Positions 3,938-18,800 of a DNA stretch of 37,494 bases are shown piece by piece. The stretch comes from Pseudomonadota bacterium (GTDB lineage Bacteria > Pseudomonadota > Gammaproteobacteria > Burkholderiales > Eutrophovitaceae). How positions within the stretch are numbered: the first letter of the stretch is position 1; each line of letters starts with the position of its first letter. The stretch is taken from NCBI GenBank assembly GCA_027624715.1, contig JAQBTV010000010.1, positions 1 to 37,494 on the forward strand. The letters run 5' to 3'. Made by a program: the position numbers and the translations under genes. Under the pieces are notes generated by a model. That model saw nothing but the letters and a program-made list of their open reading frames with translations, was not told where the DNA came from and searched no databases.

Positions 3938-4017
3938 TGTGAAGATAACCTTAAACTGAGTTAGTGATAAATTTTAATACCTAAATATTATGAGCGTAAC
4001 TGAAATAAATATTGAAT

Positions 4018-4899
4018 ATGCATAGGTTGTTGATCGTCGGGTTTGGAGATGTTGGGAAACGATTTGCCGCCCGTTATGCCTCTCGTTTTAACTTGTCTGT
4101 TGTATCGAGGACGAAGACTGGGGAGTCTCCTTCCTGGATAAGATCAATCAATTGGTTGCATGCAGATCTTGATGAACCGAGAACTCTGCAGAAGCTGGCG
4201 GGCCTGTCGGAAGGTGTGATTTATCTCGCGCCTCCAAATTCATCCGGGGATACTGATATGCGAATTCGCAATTTTTTAAGATCTATTGCATCAGGTGTAA
4301 GCATACCACAGCGACTTGTTTATATGAGCACGACCGGTGTCTATGGCGATTGCGCGGGTGAATGTGTGAGTGAAACGCGGGCGACTAACCCTCAAACAGG
4401 CCGTGCACGAAGACGGCTTGATGCAGAAGCGCAAGTGCGAGCCTGGTCGCAACGCACGGGGTGTGCGTCAATGATTCTGCGAGTGCCAGGGATCTATGCG
4501 TCCGATCGACTTCCGTTGAGTAGGCTCAAGAAGGAGTTGCCGACTTTAATGGCTGATGAGGATAGCTTCTCTAACCATATTCATGCTGACGATTTGGCGC
4601 AGATAGTTTTTCTGACACTTTTCCGGGGTAAGAGCGGTCGAATATACAATTGTATTGATGATTCGAGGATAAAAATTGGTGATTATTTAGATCTGGTAGC
4701 GGATAGGTCAGGGCTCTCAAAGCTGAGACGAATCACTAAGTCTGAAGCGAGAGACGTGTTACCTGAAATGTTGTGGTCATTTCACGCGGAGTCTCGATTG
4801 GTTTTGAATGATCGGATGAAAAAAGAGCTTAAGGTACGCTTACGGTACGCGACAGTACAGGACGGTGTGCCGATAACAAGCCGTGTGTCAGATGACTAG
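4018..4899 (+). CDS. NAD(P)-binding SDR/epimerase family protein (YeeZ-like)
   Basis: About 293 residues with an N-terminal Rossmann motif GFGDVG (residues 7-12) and the later SDR-type stretch MSTTGVYGD. There is no classical YxxxK pair in the expected place, so it belongs to the extended/atypical SDR group often annotated as NAD-dependent epimerase/dehydratase. Its substrate is unknown. I chose the ATG at 4018 rather than the TTG two codons earlier. It overlaps the next gene by 8 bases, so it is probably cotranscribed with the DsbD-alpha and TlpA genes, and it is divergent from the ferredoxin reductase. No functional link between these neighbours can be read from the sequence. Confidence 0.75.
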   Translation: MHRLLIVGFGDVGKRFAARYASRFNLSVVSRTKTGESPSWIRSINWLHADLDEPRTLQKLAGLSEGVIYLAPPNSSGDTDMRIRNFLRSIASGVSIPQRLVYMSTTGVYGDCAGECVSETRATNPQTGRARRRLDAEAQVRAWSQRTGCASMILRVPGIYASDRLPLSRLKKELPTLMADEDSFSNHIHADDLAQIVFLTLFRGKSGRIYNCIDDSRIKIGDYLDLVADRSGLSKLRRITKSEARDVLPEMLWSFHAESRLVLNDRMKKELKVRLRYATVQDGVPITSRVSDD

Positions 4900-5356
4900 A
4901 ATGTTCGTCCTCAATCGATGCATCGTCGCATTGTTAGTCTTTTGCTGCTTCCCACAGTTTGTTGTATCCAGCAGGGCTGAGACGCCTGGCGCGAGCGACT
5001 TTTATAGGTTATCTGCAACGTTAGTCAAGGGTAATAAGTTAGTACTCGCTTACGATATTCACCCCTGTTGCTATTTGTATAAGCGTAGTTTCTCGTTTCA
5101 AGTGTTAGACTCTGATGTGATCGTTAGTCAGGTTTCGTTTCCGGAGTCTTTGAGGCATAACGATGAATTTTTTGGAGAAGTAGAGATTTATAGAGGAGAA
5201 GTTCTCATTACTTTGGATCTAAACTTTACTAGAGTCGGTCGGCGAAGCGACTCATTAAGCGTCACCGCATGGCATCAAGGATGTTCAGACGAGGGTATTT
5301 GTTTTTTGCCTGATCGTAATGTATTGAGCTTTACTACTTTCCCCGGCCCTCAATGA
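4892..5356 (+). CDS. Stand-alone DsbD alpha (N-terminal) domain protein, periplasmic
   Basis: About 154 residues. A hydrophobic signal sequence (about residues 7-28, ending near SSRAE) leads to a periplasmic domain resembling the immunoglobulin-like alpha domain of DsbD. The key evidence is HQGCSDEGICF, matching the QGCADAGFCY redox motif of E. coli DsbD, with both cysteines kept at the same spacing (Cys 131 and Cys 137). The protein stops right after this domain: the membrane beta domain and thioredoxin gamma domain of full DsbD are absent. It overlaps the TlpA gene by four bases (ATGA), so the two are probably made together and may exchange electrons. ATG 4892 or 4901 could be the start. 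A separate CcdA-like membrane reductant supplier would be needed for a DsbD-like role. Confidence 0.78.
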   Translation: MTRMFVLNRCIVALLVFCCFPQFVVSSRAETPGASDFYRLSATLVKGNKLVLAYDIHPCCYLYKRSFSFQVLDSDVIVSQVSFPESLRHNDEFFGEVEIYRGEVLITLDLNFTRVGRRSDSLSVTAWHQGCSDEGICFLPDRNVLSFTTFPGPQ

Positions 5357-5889
5357 ATAACGGTGGATTGAAAATAGTGACGAGACGCTTGTTCGTAACT
5401 TGTGTCGTGATTGCGTCGGTAGTAGCTGGTATTTTGTTGAGTAATAGTCGTCCAGAATTAGATGAACGCGCATTCAGAGGTGCGCAACGAGCTCAGTTCA
5501 AGGATCTCAGTGGAAATTGGCAGCAGATCTCAAGTTGGGAGGGTAGTTATCGAATTGTTAATTTTTGGGCGACCTGGTGTCCACCCTGCCTCGAGGAGAT
5601 TCCTCTATTCGTTCGGCTTCAAGATGAGTTTGGGGATCGTAATGTCACTTTCATTGGGATCGCCTTGGATGATGTTGATCGTGTTCGTGAATTCGTTGGG
5701 GATAATGAGATAAATTACCCCATATTGATTGGGTCCGGGGACGCTCTTCGCATTTCAGAGATTCTTGGTAACCAACGTTCAGGGCTACCTTTCACGGTGT
5801 TTTTAAGCCCCTCAGGAGACTTGGTCGATATCCATTCTGGCGCAGTTCCAGAGTCTAAAATACGACAATTTGTAGATAAAATCCGCTAA
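5353..5889 (+). CDS. TlpA/ResA-like membrane-anchored thioredoxin
   Basis: A 178-residue protein with an N-terminal hydrophobic segment (about residues 13-28) that should anchor it in the inner membrane, followed by a periplasmic thioredoxin fold. The active site is WCPPC (Cys 76 and Cys 79) in the context NFWATWCPPCLEEIP, typical of the TlpA/ResA family. Such proteins reduce disulfides in the periplasm, for example on apocytochrome c or on copper-site assembly proteins. The start codon overlaps the stop of the DsbD-alpha gene, which makes that protein a likely redox partner. The cytochromes of the sox and pet operons in this window are possible clients, by inference only. Confidence 0.85.
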   Translation: MNNGGLKIVTRRLFVTCVVIASVVAGILLSNSRPELDERAFRGAQRAQFKDLSGNWQQISSWEGSYRIVNFWATWCPPCLEEIPLFVRLQDEFGDRNVTFIGIALDDVDRVREFVGDNEINYPILIGSGDALRISEILGNQRSGLPFTVFLSPSGDLVDIHSGAVPESKIRQFVDKIR

Positions 5890-6090: not shown

Positions 6091-6564
6091 ATGTCAAATG
6101 AACGTATACCACTAGAGGCCTGCGATATTCTTGTGCTGAACGGTCCAAATCTCAATCTATTGGGCACGCGAGAGCCCGGCTTATACGGTGTTGAGACGCT
6201 CGCCTCAATAGAAGCGAGGATGGTTTCGAAAGCGCAAGTAGCCAAGATAAAATTAGTATGTTGTCAAACCAATTACGAAGGTGAGTTAGTCAGCCTTATT
6301 CAGCAAATAAGAACGGCTGGAGCAAAATTTTTGATTATCAACGCCGCGGCTTATACCCACACCAGCATCGCCATCCGTGATGCGATCTCGGCCGTTGATG
6401 TTCCTTTTGTTGAAGTTCATTTATCGAATATCTACAAGCGTGAGCGCTTTCGCCATCATTCGTATCTTAGTGATAAGGCTGACGCAGTGATCTGCGGACT
6501 CGGCGCTATGGGTTATGACGTTGCGTTAGATTATGTACTGGGAAAACTGAAGGGAAGCTTGTAA
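6091..6564 (+). CDS. aroQ: 3-dehydroquinate dehydratase, type II
   Basis: Cytosolic shikimate-pathway enzyme that dehydrates 3-dehydroquinate to 3-dehydroshikimate. The 157-residue size fits the dodecameric type II family (about 150). Visible motifs are [17 protein letters not shown] with the catalytic Tyr in the last [21 protein letters not shown] and [17 protein letters not shown] with the active-site His. ATG 6091 is chosen because an AAGG sits 7 bases upstream; the TTG at 6085 is too close to it. The stop overlaps the accB start by one base, so the two are translated from one message, an arrangement common in proteobacteria. Confidence 0.96.
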
Positions 6565-7010
6565 TGGATTTAAGAAAATTAAAAAAATTAATTGATCTCG
6601 TGCAGGAGTCCGGGATTGGTGAGCTTGAAATCACAGAAGGTGAGGAGACAGTTCGAATTAATAGTGGCAACAGTAGGCCAATTTCATCCGATACACCGCC
6701 ACCGGAGACGCGTTTGGTAGCGCCGCTCGTCCAGTCAGAGGTGGCTGCAGTTGTTGAGGTGGTTCCTGTAGATGAAGGGTTTGTGATGAAGTCTCCTATG
6801 GTAGGCACGTTCTACCGTGGTTCTAACCCGGAATCTGCACCATTTGTTGAGGTCGGCCAGACAGTCTCCGAGGGCGAGACGTTGTGTATTGTTGAGGCAA
6901 TGAAGTTGCTTAATGAAATTGAGTCCGAGAAGTCCGGCGTTATTAAAAAAATTCTCGTTGAAAACGGACAACCTATTGAGTATGGCCAGCCGCTTTTTCT
7001 GATTACTTAA
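6564..7010 (+). CDS. accB: Acetyl-CoA carboxylase biotin carboxyl carrier protein
   Basis: BCCP subunit of the acetyl-CoA carboxylase that makes malonyl-CoA for fatty-acid synthesis. The 148 residues comprise an N-terminal region ([12 protein letters not shown]), a linker relatively poor in Ala and Pro compared with E. coli, and a C-terminal biotinyl domain. The biotin-accepting lysine is Lys 114 in [10 protein letters not shown], and the hallmark [11 protein letters not shown] lies upstream. The gene starts within the aroQ stop codon and is followed 72 bases later by accC, the partner that carboxylates its biotin. Confidence 0.97.
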
Positions 7011-7082: not shown

Positions 7083-8426
7083 ATGTTTGACAAGATTTTA
7101 ATTGCGAATCGCGGCGAGATCGCTCTGAGAATTCAGCGAGCGTGTAGGCAGATGGGCATTAAAACTGTAGCCGTCCATTCTGAGGCGGATGCAGAAGCTA
7201 AGTATGTGCGCCTTGCAGATGAGTCAGTATGTATCGGCCCAGCTTCGAGCACGGACTCTTATCTGAATGTACCGGCAATCATTAGTGCAGCTGAAGTAAC
7301 TGATGCGCAAGCGATTCATCCGGGCTATGGCTTTTTGTCGGAGAATGCCGATTTTGCTGAGCGGGTTGAGCAAAGCGGGTTTGTCTTCATTGGGCCAAAA
7401 CCAGAGACGATCAGGCTAATGGGCGATAAGGTCAGCGCAAAAGCTGCGATGATCAAAGCTGGTATACCTGTTGTCCCCGGAAGCAAGGGGGCTCTTCCTA
7501 GTGACCCAAAAGAAATTGTAGTTATTGCCAGAGATGTTGGCTATCCCGTGATCATAAAAGCTTCTGGAGGTGGGGGAGGGCGGGGTATGAGAGTTGTTCA
7601 CACCGAAGCGGCATTGCTTAATGCGGTGAACATGACAAAACAAGAAGCTCAAGTAGCCTTTGGTAATCCAACTGTTTACATGGAAAAGTTTTTAGAGAAT
7701 CCGCGACATATTGAAGTTCAAGTTTTAGCCGATCAACATAAGCACGCTATATATTTGGGTGATAGAGATTGCTCCTTACAGCGACGCCATCAAAAGGTTA
7801 TTGAAGAGGCACCAGCACCACATATTCCACCCAGGGAGAGAGTAAAAATTGGGGAGAAGTGTGCCGAGGCATGCCGAAAAATTGGATATCGAGGAGCTGG
7901 AACGTTTGAGTTTTTATATGAGAATAAAAAATTTTATTTCATTGAGATGAATACAAGGGTACAAGTAGAGCACCCTGTAACCGAAATGATTACAGGCGTA
8001 GATATCGTAAAAACCCAAATTTCTGTTGCGTATGGAGATAAATTACCCTTTCGGCAAAAAGATATTCAATTTAAGGGGCACGCAATTGAGTGCAGGATCA
8101 ATGCCGAACATCCCTTCAAATTTACTCCATCACCCGGAACGATTACTACGCTCCATATCCCCGGCGGACCTGGCATTCGCGTAGATTCACACGCATATCA
8201 GAATTATTATGTGCCGCCATACTATGATTCTTTAATCGGCAAGTTAATTGCGCACGGAGACACGCGAGCGCAAGCACTTGCTAGGATGAAAGTTGCGCTA
8301 TCTGAGATGATTGTCGAGGGGATTGAGACTAATATTCCGCTGCACCGTGAATTGGTGTCCGATGCAAATTTTATTGAAGGTGGTGTAAGTATTCATTACC
8401 TTGAGAAAAAACTCGCTAACCCTTAG
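7083..8426 (+). CDS. accC: Acetyl-CoA carboxylase, biotin carboxylase subunit
   Basis: Uses ATP and bicarbonate to carboxylate the biotin on AccB. The 447 residues match the family (E. coli 449). N-terminal [16 protein letters not shown] is the standard start, the ATP-grasp glycine loop [14 protein letters not shown] is intact, and the catalytic segment [15 protein letters not shown] is present. The full-length C-terminal lobe ends LEKKLANP. It is in the aroQ-accB-accC unit; the carboxyltransferase genes accA and accD are not in the window, as is usual. Confidence 0.98.
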
Positions 8427-10815: not shown

Positions 10816-11643
10816 TTAGCGACGGTAGACAGATGATTGTAGGGGTAATCCGTTACTCAGGTATGAATGAAAGAACTCTAGGTTATTAAGCACTTCGCTT
10901 CCAGATTCAAATGGAACGGCGCCAACTGCCTCCATGCAGCGCTGGTATCTCATCTGTAGTGTGTAGAGACGCTCCCCTCCTCTAAATACGGGAAAATGAA
11001 CGGCCTGGCCAATAGTTGGAGACAGGAGCTCATCTCGAAAATAGCGGCCTCCGTTTGTTAGGTGGCAGGATGCACAGGCTAAGTTATATTGACCAATGCG
11101 TCTAAAATAGAAGGACTTGCCGAGCGCATACTTAATTAAGGCTTCTTCGGTGGACACTTCAATTTGCATCAGCATGCCGTCTGATAAAGATCTCGCGTAA
11201 GCACTTAGAGCTCCCATCGTTTCGGGATCAATATGATTCAACTTTGTTTCCCCGTTTTGCTCGAGACAAAAATTGAGCGCCATTTCAAATGTGACTACTT
11301 GTTTGTATGTTGTATCGTAGTAAGGAAATTTGCCAGCGACATTAACTCCTTTATTCTCAAAGCAATTATCAAATGTTTGGCCATTCTTAAAAAGGGTACC
11401 CCATATTTTTTTACCTTGATCGATCATCTCCTGAAAAGGTGGGAAATCCATGATACTGTTGTATTGATCAAGCGCATCTTCACTCAACATCATAGAGCCG
11501 TGGATGTATTGAGATATAGGTACGTCAGGTATGTTCGCTGCGAAAGTAGCTATAAACAGCTGTCGGTCTTCTTCTGGGTTGCTCCATGTCTGAGAAGATG
11601 CAATAAGAATGATTAGAGCTGTAAGATATTTAAGAGGGCGCAT
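10816..11643 (-). CDS. soxA: SoxA, c-type cytochrome of the SoxAX thiosulfate-linking complex
   Basis: Periplasmic subunit of L-cysteine S-thiosulfotransferase, which with SoxX joins thiosulfate to the carrier SoxYZ. The 275 residues begin with a Sec signal (about 1-21). One haem motif, CASCH (Cys 190, Cys 193, His 194), is present. The position of the second haem seen in dihaem SoxA has lone cysteines instead (Cys 94 and Cys 126, likely a disulfide), so this is a monohaem form. Cys 236 in RYQRCMEAVG matches the conserved cysteine that binds the haem iron. It is the last gene of the minus-strand soxX-soxY-soxZ-soxA unit, 9 bases after soxZ. Confidence 0.93.
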   Translation of the reverse strand: MRPLKYLTALIILIASSQTWSNPEEDRQLFIATFAANIPDVPISQYIHGSMMLSEDALDQYNSIMDFPPFQEMIDQGKKIWGTLFKNGQTFDNCFENKGVNVAGKFPYYDTTYKQVVTFEMALNFCLEQNGETKLNHIDPETMGALSAYARSLSDGMLMQIEVSTEEALIKYALGKSFYFRRIGQYNLACASCHLTNGGRYFRDELLSPTIGQAVHFPVFRGGERLYTLQMRYQRCMEAVGAVPFESGSEVLNNLEFFHSYLSNGLPLQSSVYRR

Positions 11644-11652
11644 GGCAGTATC

Positions 11653-11967
11653 TTAGGAGATCGTCGTCTTTCCGACCCCTGATGCACCCATGTTGTCCTC
11701 CCACTCGACGCTCAACTCATCACCACCAACCGCGTTAGGCACCCAGTAGTTCAAATACGGATTTTTGGACACGGATCGGCTCCAGTGAGCTTGCATGATT
11801 GGTTTTCCATTATGGCTAATTTTGACGGTATGAATGAAGTACTTTGGAATCAATTCCTTCGTATGCTTATCTTTTCGATAACCCGTTTCCATTGGATGGA
11901 AAATCATTATTTTGACATCCGCTACGTTGTCTTTAAGGCTTACTCTAAAGCGTACTGTTTTATCCAT
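11653..11967 (-). CDS. soxZ: SoxZ, thiosulfate carrier partner of SoxY
   Basis: About 104 residues starting MDKTVRFRVSLKDN; an upstream TTG at 12006 would overlap soxY and give an over-long, basic N-terminus. SoxZ has an immunoglobulin-like fold, no signal peptide, and is exported as a complex with Tat-targeted SoxY. Family sequence is visible in KIMIFHPMETGYRKD and in the C-terminal GGDELSVEWEDNMG. It lies 23 bases after soxY and 9 before soxA. The heterodimer carries the sulfur substrate on the SoxY C-terminal cysteine. Confidence 0.92.
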   Translation of the reverse strand: MDKTVRFRVSLKDNVADVKIMIFHPMETGYRKDKHTKELIPKYFIHTVKISHNGKPIMQAHWSRSVSKNPYLNYWVPNAVGGDELSVEWEDNMGASGVGKTTIS

Positions 11968-11990
11968 TTTTTTTCGTATCTTTCTCTGAT

Positions 11991-12458
11991 TTATTCTTCT
12001 CCGCAACCGCCGATAGTTACATTAACTTGTCGAGCACTTCTGTAGAAAATCCCTTCCGCCAATACGATGACATGCACAAATGCTGTCTCACCCATCTTTA
12101 TCCTAGATGCAATGAATGGTTCTACGCCAGCCGTGAACATGTAATCTGACACTAAGGGTTGAGGATTCTTTTCCGCGAACACAAAAATTCGCTCAGTTTT
12201 TGGAATTTTGCTAAGAATCTTGATAGGAACGATTGCGCCATTTTCAGCAATTTCGGGTAGGGACAGCTCGATGTTTTTGCCCGCATCACGCAGCTCGTCT
12301 GGGTTTCTTATTCCAATACTCCGAAATGTATTAACGATATCGATCTCATTGTAGGCTTTTTCATTCCAGCGTGCGTACCCGTTGATGGGTATTAATAGCG
12401 TACTTATTATTGTAAGTGCTGATTGGAGAAATGCTCTACGTTGTTTTGAAAGCGTCAT
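11991..12458 (-). CDS. soxY: SoxY, sulfur carrier protein (variant C-terminus)
   Basis: Covalent sulfur carrier of the Sox pathway, active in the periplasm. I take the ATG at 12458, giving 155 residues and a twin-arginine signal SKQRRAFLQ (Arg 7-8) with a hydrophobic core to about residue 28. The longer frame to 12575 would run into soxX. The carrier cysteine is Cys 152 near the end of VTIGGCGEE. The family normally ends GGCGG; here the last glycine is replaced by two glutamates, so the swinging arm is one residue longer and acidic. It starts 5 bases after soxX. Gene order X-Y-Z-A is the usual core. Confidence 0.92.
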   Translation of the reverse strand: MTLSKQRRAFLQSALTIISTLLIPINGYARWNEKAYNEIDIVNTFRSIGIRNPDELRDAGKNIELSLPEIAENGAIVPIKILSKIPKTERIFVFAEKNPQPLVSDYMFTAGVEPFIASRIKMGETAFVHVIVLAEGIFYRSARQVNVTIGGCGEE

Positions 12459-12463
12459 AAATT

Positions 12464-12847
12464 CTATAGCGTGTAAAGGTAATCGATGATCGTTTGAATT
12501 TGTGCTTCGCTTAAAATTTCGTGCGCGCCAAAAGGTGGCATGATCGTATCCGGGTAAGTATCCCGCGCGTCCCAAATTTGTTTGAAGAGTACTTCTCTAG
12601 AGGGGAACCGACGTTTCATGTCCTTAAGTGGCGGAGCAATATTAGCTAGGGTTACTGCGAGCTTATCGTTGGGGGCGCTGTGACAAGCAAGACAATTTCC
12701 ATAATCATAATTGTGAGTAAGCTCCCGGCCACTGCGAACAGAATCAGTTTCTGCTTTAGAGTTAATCGGCGATAACAGGATAGCCAATAGGCTTAAGAAG
12801 AAAGATAAGGGAGGGATCAGTTTGTGTTTTCGTAAAGTTCGTACCAT
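12464..12847 (-). CDS. soxX: SoxX, monohaem c-type cytochrome
   Basis: Small periplasmic cytochrome that pairs with SoxA and accepts electrons when thiosulfate is attached to SoxYZ. The 127 residues include a Sec signal (about 1-32), the haem motif CLACH (Cys 52, Cys 55, His 56) and the probable axial Met in DTIMPPFGAHEILS. The C-terminus IDYLYTL is normal for SoxX. It opens the sox unit, 40 bases after the moaC stop on the same strand, so it may be read from the moaC promoter or from one in that gap. Electrons could pass to the cytochrome c oxidase branch fed by the bc1 complex encoded nearby. Confidence 0.93.
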   Translation of the reverse strand: MVRTLRKHKLIPPLSFFLSLLAILLSPINSKAETDSVRSGRELTHNYDYGNCLACHSAPNDKLAVTLANIAPPLKDMKRRFPSREVLFKQIWDARDTYPDTIMPPFGAHEILSEAQIQTIIDYLYTL

Positions 12848-16835: not shown

Positions 16836-16839
16836 TTTG

Positions 16840-18093
16840 ATGCTTAGACCAGTAATGACCTGGATTGATGAACGCTTCCCCATGAGTAAGATGGTGCGGG
16901 AGCATCTCACTGAATACTATGCACCAAAGAATTTCAACTTTTGGTACTTCTTTGGCGCTTTAGCCTTAGTTGTGTTGGCGATACAAATTCTTTCTGGCAT
17001 TTTTCTTACGATGCATTACAAGCCAGATGCTGATAAAGCATTTGCATCTGTGGAATACATCATGAGGGACGTACCTGCGGGATGGTTAATTCGGTACATA
17101 CACTCGACTGGAGCGTCCATGTTCTTTGTCGTTATTTACTTGCACATGTTTAGGGCGCTTTTGTATGGTTCATACCGAAAGCCTCGAGAATTATTATGGA
17201 TCTTTGGGATGGTAATTTACTTGTGCCTGATGGCGGAAGCATTCTTTGGTTATCTTTTGCCTTGGGGGCAAATGTCTTACTGGGGGGCTCAGGTAATCGT
17301 CAACTTATTTGGTGCTATTCCTTTTATTGGTCCTGATTTGGCTATTTGGATTAGAGGAGACTACGTTGTTTCCGATGCAACGCTAAGTCGATTCTTCGCG
17401 CTACACGTGATCGCCGTGCCCATCGCTCTACTTGGGCTTGTGGTGGCGCACATTATTTCTCTCCATGAGGTGGGCTCTAATAATCCTGACGGTATTGACA
17501 TTAAAAAACACAAAGACCCAATAACAGGTAAGCCTCTGGATGGTATCCCTTTCCATCCCTATTACACGGTGAAAGATTTATTTGGTCTTGTGGTCTTCCT
17601 GATCATATTTGCATCGATTGTTTTCTTTGCCCCAGAAATGGGTGGGTACTTCTTAGAGCACAACAACTTCATTCCAGCAGATCCGTTAAAAACGCCACCG
17701 CATATTGCGCCCGTTTGGTATTTCACACCTTTTTACTCGATTTTAAGAGCGGTTCCGCCGATGTTTGGCTCTCAATTCCCGGGTGTTTTAGCTATGGGTG
17801 GCGCAGTCATCATTTTGTTCTTGTTACCTTGGTTGGATAAGAGCCCGGTGCGATCAATAAGGTATAAAGGGCTACTTTTTAAGACATCGTTGGCGATTTT
17901 TGTAGTGTCATTCTTGCTACTTGGATATTTAGGGCTAAAGCCTATTAATATTTGGGGTCAAATCGGAGGTGCTGATGTGGCCACGTTGGTGGCACAGCTT
18001 TGTACGGCACTTTATTTTCTGTTTTTCCTATCCTTACCTATCGTTTCTCGACTTGATCGAACAAAGGCGGAGCCAGACCGGGTGACTTCATGA
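16840..18093 (+). CDS. petB: Cytochrome b of the bc1 complex
   Basis: Inner-membrane subunit that binds two b haems and holds both quinone sites. About 417 residues with eight or so hydrophobic helices. The haem ligand pairs are His 88/His 102 and His 189/His 204, with the usual 13- and 14-residue spacing. Other hallmarks are WGAQVIVNLFGAIPFIG, and PVWYFTPFYSILRA near the PEW-type Qo loop, here PVWY rather than PEWY, as is also seen in several proteobacteria. ATG 16840 follows petA by 4 bases; it overlaps petC by 4 bases (ATGA). Confidence 0.97.
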   Translation: MLRPVMTWIDERFPMSKMVREHLTEYYAPKNFNFWYFFGALALVVLAIQILSGIFLTMHYKPDADKAFASVEYIMRDVPAGWLIRYIHSTGASMFFVVIYLHMFRALLYGSYRKPRELLWIFGMVIYLCLMAEAFFGYLLPWGQMSYWGAQVIVNLFGAIPFIGPDLAIWIRGDYVVSDATLSRFFALHVIAVPIALLGLVVAHIISLHEVGSNNPDGIDIKKHKDPITGKPLDGIPFHPYYTVKDLFGLVVFLIIFASIVFFAPEMGGYFLEHNNFIPADPLKTPPHIAPVWYFTPFYSILRAVPPMFGSQFPGVLAMGGAVIILFLLPWLDKSPVRSIRYKGLLFKTSLAIFVVSFLLLGYLGLKPINIWGQIGGADVATLVAQLCTALYFLFFLSLPIVSRLDRTKAEPDRVTS

Positions 18094-18800
18094 AGAGTAC
18101 TTTAATCTTTTTGAGTTTCTTGTCTGTAGTTGGATTGGCAAGCGCAGCAGTTGGTGGGCATAGGCTGGATAGAGCTAATATTGACGCCTCTGATGCGGAA
18201 TCGCTACAACGGGGAGCAAAAATATTTGTAGATCGGTGCGTGAGTTGCCATTCAGCCGCTTCTATGCGTTATAACCGACTTACTGATATAGGCCTCTCAG
18301 AGAATCAGATCAAGCAGTATTTTATTGCTGACGATATGGTTAAAGTGGGTGACACCATAAAGAGTGCCATTCCAGCGTCAGATGCAAAAGCCATGTTCGG
18401 TGTGTTGCCGCCTGATTTGTCTGTCGTTTCTCGGTCAAGAGGGGCAGATTGGCTCTACACGTATCTACGAAGTTTTTATAAAGATGACACTGCAACTACG
18501 GGTTGGAATAACCTTCTTTATCCTAATGTTGCCATGCCAAACGTCTTCTCGCAGGAACAGGGTGTTTTTAGTGCTGTGCATTCTATGAGCGGACTAAGTC
18601 TAACGGTTGAAACGGAAGGGTCATTAACAGCCGACACATTCGATGATCTGATGTTAGATTTAACAAATTTTTTAGTTTATATGGGAGAGCCAGCGGCGGA
18701 AAAACGCAAGCAAATTGGCAGTCTCGTGATTATCTTCCTGATTCTTTTTGCTTTCATGGCTTGGGCTGTCAAAAGAGAATTTTGGAAGGACATACATTGA
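18090..18800 (+). CDS. petC: Cytochrome c1 of the bc1 complex
   Basis: Periplasmic haem subunit that passes electrons from the Rieske protein to soluble cytochrome c. The 236 residues include a signal peptide (about 1-19), the haem motif CVSCH (Cys 50, Cys 53, His 54) followed by SAASMRYNRL, a likely axial Met in the MPNVFS segment, and a C-terminal membrane anchor (about residues 208-228) before KREFWKDIH. The start overlaps the petB stop. The usual petABC order is intact. Confidence 0.96.
   Translation: MKSTLIFLSFLSVVGLASAAVGGHRLDRANIDASDAESLQRGAKIFVDRCVSCHSAASMRYNRLTDIGLSENQIKQYFIADDMVKVGDTIKSAIPASDAKAMFGVLPPDLSVVSRSRGADWLYTYLRSFYKDDTATTGWNNLLYPNVAMPNVFSQEQGVFSAVHSMSGLSLTVETEGSLTADTFDDLMLDLTNFLVYMGEPAAEKRKQIGSLVIIFLILFAFMAWAVKREFWKDIH

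Follow-up and report, generated by a model that had tools for sequence, protein, structure and literature searches.

A DsbD alpha domain encoded alone in the chromosomal slot of classical dsbD in a Burkholderiales family

DsbD is known from textbooks as an electron cascade of three domains. In a 37,494-nucleotide stretch of a Burkholderiales genome (GenBank assembly GCA_027624715.1, contig JAQBTV010000010.1, positions 1 to 37,494; hereafter the window), we found that the alpha domain of DsbD is encoded on its own: the membrane beta domain and the C-terminal gamma thioredoxin domain are absent from the polypeptide. Comparison of loci supports reading this protein as the remnant of a resident classical dsbD, a reduction at the level of domains, because relatives in the order hold a full-length dsbD in the same slot beside tlpA and aroQ. 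The assembly that contains the window, on contig C10, comprises 1.77 Mb in 32 contigs and is 97.2% complete. Our surveys covered 17 genomes of the family, eight loci of the window's genus and an even sample of 60 genomes of the order.

Results

On the forward strand of the window, an apparent operon begins with an SDR/epimerase-like gene (4012..4899; PF01370), which also lies upstream in the loci of the family and the order and whose 3' end overlaps the start of the gene for the free-standing alpha domain (4892..5356). There are three candidate starts for the alpha gene, GTG 4883, ATG 4892 and ATG 4901. The following gene encodes a TlpA/ResA-like thioredoxin (5353..5889), and the open reading frames (4883/4892-5356 and 5353-5889) confirm that the two genes overlap at an ATGA, as the initial annotation had noted. 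Downstream on the same strand are a gene that we, like that annotation, take to be aroQ (6091..6564) and the presumptive genes accB (6564..7010) and accC (7083..8426; the gene used for our tree), all of them neighbours in the family and order loci as well. The window also encodes SoxA (CASCH), SoxZ, a SoxY that ends in GGCGEE and cytochrome b/c1 (c1 with CVSCH), at 10816-12575 and 16837-18800.

The alpha product is a one-domain protein of 154 aa that matches DsbD_N (PF11412; E 1.7e-20, 73.6 bits against a curated cut-off of 25) and that has, by eye, a signal-peptide-like N-terminus. Its redox pair is of the CX5C type (C131-SDEGI-C137, codons 5282..5302, forward strand), and the two cysteines correspond to E. 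coli C103 and C109 when aligned to 1l6p and 3pfu; its cap loop reads DEFFG. In E. coli nDsbD, C103/C109 are the redox pair and F70 lies in the cap loop (PMC7347389). C131, C137 and the cap-loop residues D91, F94 and G95 are invariant in all 15 rows of the family alignment. When we compared the alpha family profile with the PDB, we found nine distinct sequences at E <= 0.001, all of them named DsbD or DsbD-alpha (N-terminal domains). The AlphaFold model (mean pLDDT 83.0, pTM 0.69) has the immunoglobulin-type nDsbD fold, with a TMt of about 0.8 in comparisons with E. coli nDsbD (1jpe, 1l6p and 1vrs). These results agree with the initial annotation, which had described a DsbD alpha domain standing alone as a secreted protein with both redox cysteines. 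Thus the window protein has the domain family, the CX5C pair and the cap loop in common with classical DsbD (nDsbD/DsbDalpha); it differs in having no membrane and gamma domains, in being a free, predicted secreted protein and in carrying a genus-specific CC before the YLY strand.

The vicinal cysteines (C59-C60; codons 5066..5071, forward strand) replace a GY just before that strand, and within the family they are specific to the window's genus, with CC in 8/8 of its rows and in 0/7 rows of the other genera, which have GY. A motif scan over the collected loci gave 21 matches among 179, overlapping loci being counted repeatedly; 20 of these belong to the window's genus, and the 21st comes from a Woeseiaceae record (L175), whose DsbD is full-length with tandem alpha domains. 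CC as a mark of the free alpha form was rejected since this full-length protein has it too. Tandem-alpha DsbD proteins, which carry DsbD_N twice in 740-850 aa, were observed at loci L084, L085, L089, L094 and L175, the last shown by sequence, and several genomes of the 60-genome order sample have two DsbD_N matches in one frame.

A search for DsbD_TM at E <= 1 across the assembly returned a single match, on contig C1, and none at the window. When the whole window was searched by tblastn in six frames with a classical beta-gamma sequence and with the TM-gamma part of the genome's ScsB, the only two hits were weak, one at 4415-4519 (E 0.99) and one inside TlpA at 5437-5802 (E 0.011), as compared to E 1.6e-172 at a full dsbD locus that served as the control. 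The membrane and gamma domains are indeed missing, as had been proposed, and beyond the two weak matches there is no beta or gamma remnant in any frame. A hidden frameshift or assembly error that splits a full DsbD has a parallel elsewhere, in a DsbD apparently split into two frames of 275 + 289 aa (L152). For the window we give this explanation practically no credence, because the tblastn result and the same short gene in 15 family assemblies rule it out.

The short alpha frame is present in 15 of the 17 family genomes and in the same slot as far as contigs reach; the assemblies of the other two, G060 and G071, lack the slot, as judged from the absence of any aroQ match. The gene order in the family is Fer2 reductase, SDR, cutA, alpha, tlpA, aroQ, accB, accC, prmA. 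Here cutA is a name that we assumed at first and then carried between loci by homology; the gene is in the slot in seven loci of the other family genera and absent in the seven window-genus loci that reach the SDR gene. A tlpA frame follows alpha in 14 of the 15 genomes. In the exception (G074), no tlpA frame was recognised and the PEPC gene of the same assembly is also broken into frames. The ATGA overlap of alpha and tlpA is found in five of the eight genus loci (the window, L074, L075, L076 and L078) and is absent in L079-L081.

Elsewhere in the order, a full DsbD is often found in this slot, in the arrangement cutA-dsbD-tlpA-aroQ-accB-accC. Among 34 order loci with classical DsbD, which were chosen for long frames and are all full by that selection, cutA is directly upstream in 22, tlpA is next in 19, aroQ lies within three genes in 19 and tlpA followed by aroQ is seen in 14. 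We found the same arrangement in named loci from GTDB genomes, taken as the best 80 of 516 relatives: in 73 the frame is >= 500 aa long, with cutA directly upstream in 50, tlpA next in 44 and tlpA then aroQ in 28. The seven shorter ones comprise two cut by a contig end (L151 and L186), the apparent two-frame split of L152 and four with alpha alone, of which three are from the window's genus (L144-L146) and one is from a betaproteobacterium (L206) whose alpha is 36% identical to that of the window. The closest named record among these best 80 of 516 is Betaproteobacteria bacterium UBA3031. The statement in the initial annotation that betaproteobacteria usually have a full-length dsbD near TlpA and aroQ was therefore borne out for relatives in the order, and with it the suggestion of a domain-level reduction, the slot cutA-dsbD-tlpA-aroQ of the relatives being the slot of the window alpha. 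An origin of alpha from an unrelated gene was rejected by this slot homology.

Within the window's genus, alpha has dN/dS values of 0.20-0.34 (six pairs), as compared to 0.11-0.48 for tlpA (six pairs), 0.07-0.11 for aroQ (six pairs) and 0.16-0.19 for the SDR gene (three pairs). Because of these alpha values and the invariance of the redox cysteines in 15/15 rows, the sequence data argue for the free alpha being a working protein under purifying selection, with looser constraint than aroQ. The alternative is that the lone alpha retains little function and is a decaying stage between full DsbD and its total loss. We consider decay improbable: the slot is seen across the order as full DsbD, alpha-gamma, alpha and nothing, and alpha diverges faster than aroQ, as decay would have it; however, both cysteines and D91/F94/G95 are held invariant, dN/dS is 0.20-0.34 and alpha stands alone in the slot in each of four order families (f1, f29, f17 and f38).

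The only DsbD_TM (PF02683) protein of the genome is a 708-aa ScsB-type DsbD on contig C1, whose single chain joins an alpha-like N-terminal domain (VCKDLC) to a TM domain with NLMPC and ATPCTAP and to a thioredoxin domain (AAWCITC). ScsB belongs to the DsbD superfamily and is encoded on a different contig; the window alpha is not ScsB. By eye, there is no thioredoxin-like or ScsC-like gene in the 9-kb neighbourhood of the ScsB-type gene; a metallo-beta-lactamase/rhodanese frame sits at the border of this region. The initial annotation had placed CcdA elsewhere in the genome. In the 97.2%-complete assembly, where a gap is possible, we found no stand-alone CcdA: the single PF02683 match is inside the 708-aa ScsB-type protein, and nothing in the assembly scores above the cut-off of PF13386. 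What the search for ccdA or a full dsbD did find is the full ScsB-type DsbD on C1. Systems of CcdA and a free thioredoxin likewise consist of a transporter and separate periplasmic parts; in those, it is the TM part that stands free (PMC4460558), whereas in the window the alpha part is free and no CcdA was found.

The genome also has a DsbC gene (DsbC_N + Thioredoxin_2, FADPNCGYC) and a second TlpA-like protein (L007). ResB has no match in the assembly, and no Ccm/Ccs system was found in its 97.2%, although the genes may fall in a gap; the single PF01578 match is similar to what we take to be YpjD. The genome thus encodes Sox proteins and c-type cytochromes, yet no Ccm/Ccs was found, which may reflect an assembly gap or something unusual.

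To relate the free alpha to ScsB across the order, we recorded which DsbD forms are present in each of the 60 genomes. ScsB is found in 12 of the 13 genomes that lack classical DsbD and in one of the 47 that have it (Fisher p 1.2e-10, with kinship uncorrected and with a PF11412 match of the N domain at E <= 0.001 required for counting ScsB, so that it may be undercounted in classical genomes). Six of the 60 genomes have alpha alone (G000, G018, G029, G016 and G038) or an alpha-gamma form (G002) in the absence of classical DsbD, and all six have ScsB. The remaining genomes have ScsB only (six), classical DsbD and ScsB (one, G025), classical DsbD only (46) or none of these (one); the last is G052, which is 84% complete, has neither classical DsbD, ScsB nor alpha and is counted among the 13. 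For the 46 classical-only genomes, 40 were checked on sequence, including one frame cut by a contig end (G006) and one of 508 aa that matches only part of DsbD (G059), and six were assigned by frame length (G021, G036, G037, G039, G051 and G054). The sequence check extended to all 13 ScsB-type proteins, of which those of G009, G049 and G012 are longer than usual, at 885-1389 aa. The six ScsB-only genomes have no DsbD_N match outside ScsB. Where aroQ was found in these genomes, tlpA is directly upstream of it without alpha in 4/5 (G012, G009, G017 and G022), with the order cutA-tlpA-aroQ in G012; no tlpA was recognised at the aroQ of G049, and G019 has no aroQ match.

In an accC tree of 44 rows, the four families with alpha alone in the slot (f1, f29, f17 and f38) fail to group as a single clade. 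The alpha-alone label needs four changes, and the starred branches alone force four. The window's own family f1 is not one clade either, and the full-DsbD genome G023 pairs with the f1 genome G018 on a starred branch. Several independent reductions to alpha are the simplest reading of this one gene tree, on which transfer is also possible. In G016, the slot alpha (L063 4281-5213) appears by eye to have, at its C-terminus, a hydrophobic stretch and then arginines, which would fit re-anchoring in the membrane.

Forms other than the lone slot alpha were also found. In family f3 (G002 and G111), an alpha-gamma fusion of 298-299 aa without beta directly follows cutA at both loci (L065 4036-4935 and L121 4867-5763); neither is beside tlpA-aroQ, and G002 has ScsB as well. 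An additional short DsbD_N frame lies away from the slot in three genomes with classical DsbD (G046, G036 and G023), and free alpha domains are thus not confined to ScsB genomes. In G046, the free DsbD_N (L066 4214-4693) has a CX6C pair and scores 82.7 bits, with a PAP2/signal-peptidase-II frame upstream; by eye, a heavy-metal ATPase-like frame is also nearby. In G036 and G023, the extra DsbD_N is of another type, with a CX3C pair and 34-36 bits, and it lies directly behind a TlpA-like redoxin gene (L067 3445-4041, then DsbD_N at 4043-4516, in G036; L068 3637-4200, then DsbD_N at 4197-4754 with a 4-base overlap, in G023). These two pairs hint, from gene order, that TlpA-like proteins and free alpha domains may work together.

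The TlpA-like neighbour in the window is 178 aa long and belongs to the redoxin families PF00578/PF08534; it has a WCPPC motif and a hydrophobic N-terminal stretch, read by eye as a putative anchor. The TlpA/ResA/CcmG group has the same families and motif and, as judged by eye, such a stretch, and both ResA and TlpA are among the PDB relatives of the protein; it differs from the group in that its scores fall under the curated cut-offs (73.3 vs 170 bits for ResA-type PRK03147 and 54.5 vs 230 bits for TlpA).

This neighbour is central to the relay proposed in the initial annotation, in which CcdA reduces TlpA and TlpA then acts with alpha. The CcdA part of that proposal is not supported, an ScsB-type DsbD being found instead, while there are points both for and against the step from TlpA to alpha. 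Recast with ScsB, the relay would have ScsB reduce TlpA, which would replace gamma and reduce the free alpha, and alpha would pass the electrons on. The thioredoxin gene directly downstream with its ATGA overlap, the tlpA frame after alpha in 14 of 15 family genomes, the thioredoxin-like nature of the lost gamma itself and the unrelated pairs of a TlpA-like gene and a free DsbD_N gene outside the slot in G036 and G023 are all in keeping with such a step. However, tlpA also adjoins full dsbD, in 19 of the 34 order loci, where gamma is present, and it adjoins aroQ in four ScsB genomes without alpha; the adjacency of alpha and tlpA is ancestral, inherited from dsbD-tlpA. Moreover, relatives of the CcmG/ResA/CcsX type are described as kept reduced by DsbD or CcdA, that is, as clients (PMC4460558). 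We regard the ScsB-TlpA-alpha order as unlikely, although the pairs in G036 and G023 raised our estimate of it slightly.

In a further alternative, alpha would be an output adaptor that takes electrons from ScsB to TlpA, or to other clients, for example cytochrome c maturation or SoxY, and not to DsbC. SoxV/SoxW are the precedent for SoxY, and the cytochrome c1 (CVSCH), SoxA (CASCH) and SoxY (GGCGEE) of the window call for periplasmic reducing chemistry; the pairs in G036 and G023 fit here too. We think this alternative quite unlikely, as no Ccm/Ccs system was found (no ResB and a lone PF01578 match, with an assembly gap possible) and TlpA persists without alpha in four genomes.

Discussion

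The reading that we favour, tentatively and at somewhat less than an even chance, is that alpha is a selected remnant of the resident dsbD and acts as an adaptor fed by ScsB that serves DsbC and perhaps TlpA. What we observe is the position in the dsbD slot, the absence of beta and gamma, an active site that has been retained and, elsewhere in the genome, the genes for an ScsB-type transporter and DsbC; the electron flow is what we infer from them. ScsB would have made classical DsbD dispensable, and alpha would then have been kept repeatedly as a soluble adaptor. Transmembrane electron transport would now fall to the ScsB-type protein, whose C-terminal thioredoxin-like domain (AAWCITC) may take over from the lost DsbD gamma and reduce alpha in trans. 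TlpA is the other candidate donor to alpha. The free alpha would in turn reduce DsbC and perhaps also the neighbouring TlpA, and would thus let a transporter of another type serve the old DsbD clients.

Several precedents bear on this scheme. The three DsbD domains were reportedly found by Katzen and Beckwith in 2000 to work as separate chains in E. coli. E. coli nDsbD passes electrons from the gamma domain to DsbC, CcmG and DsbG (PMC7347389; also PMC3961690), and ScsB keeps ScsC reduced, a pair described as similar to DsbD and DsbC (PMC8900818). If ScsB is matched to ScsC in this way, it may not serve DsbC alone, and alpha would bridge the two.

Other observations count against the adaptor reading. 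ScsB has its own alpha-like domain, and an adaptor may not be needed. The six ScsB genomes among the 60 without DsbD_N outside ScsB indicate that some lineages with ScsB can do without alpha, and G052 has neither ScsB nor alpha. Free alpha domains also occur in three genomes with classical DsbD. The dN/dS of alpha is above that of aroQ. The position of DsbD_N behind a TlpA-like gene in G036 and G023 favours a link to TlpA over one to DsbC, and these two pairs lowered our confidence in the adaptor reading a little.

Taken across the order, it is conceivable, and we say so with more reserve than for the window alone, that several Burkholderiales lineages have rebuilt DsbD as a modular relay acting in trans, in which ScsB is combined with a salvaged, diffusible alpha for clients of the DsbC or TlpA type; the alpha-gamma fusion of family f3 would then represent another form of such salvage. 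No free-standing DsbD alpha protein is named in the titles and abstract openings of the literature searched, a collection with most subscription journals outside its coverage.

The same locus occurs as full DsbD, alpha-gamma, alpha and nothing, tied to ScsB, and so provides a natural domain-deletion series. Such a series could be used to test the pairing of domains in trans, the limits within which ScsB can replace DsbD and the role of nDsbD as a portable hub. Taken together, these data suggest that relays of reducing power may be rebuildable from separate parts, and the lone alpha arrangement is a recurrent, testable variation on DsbD.
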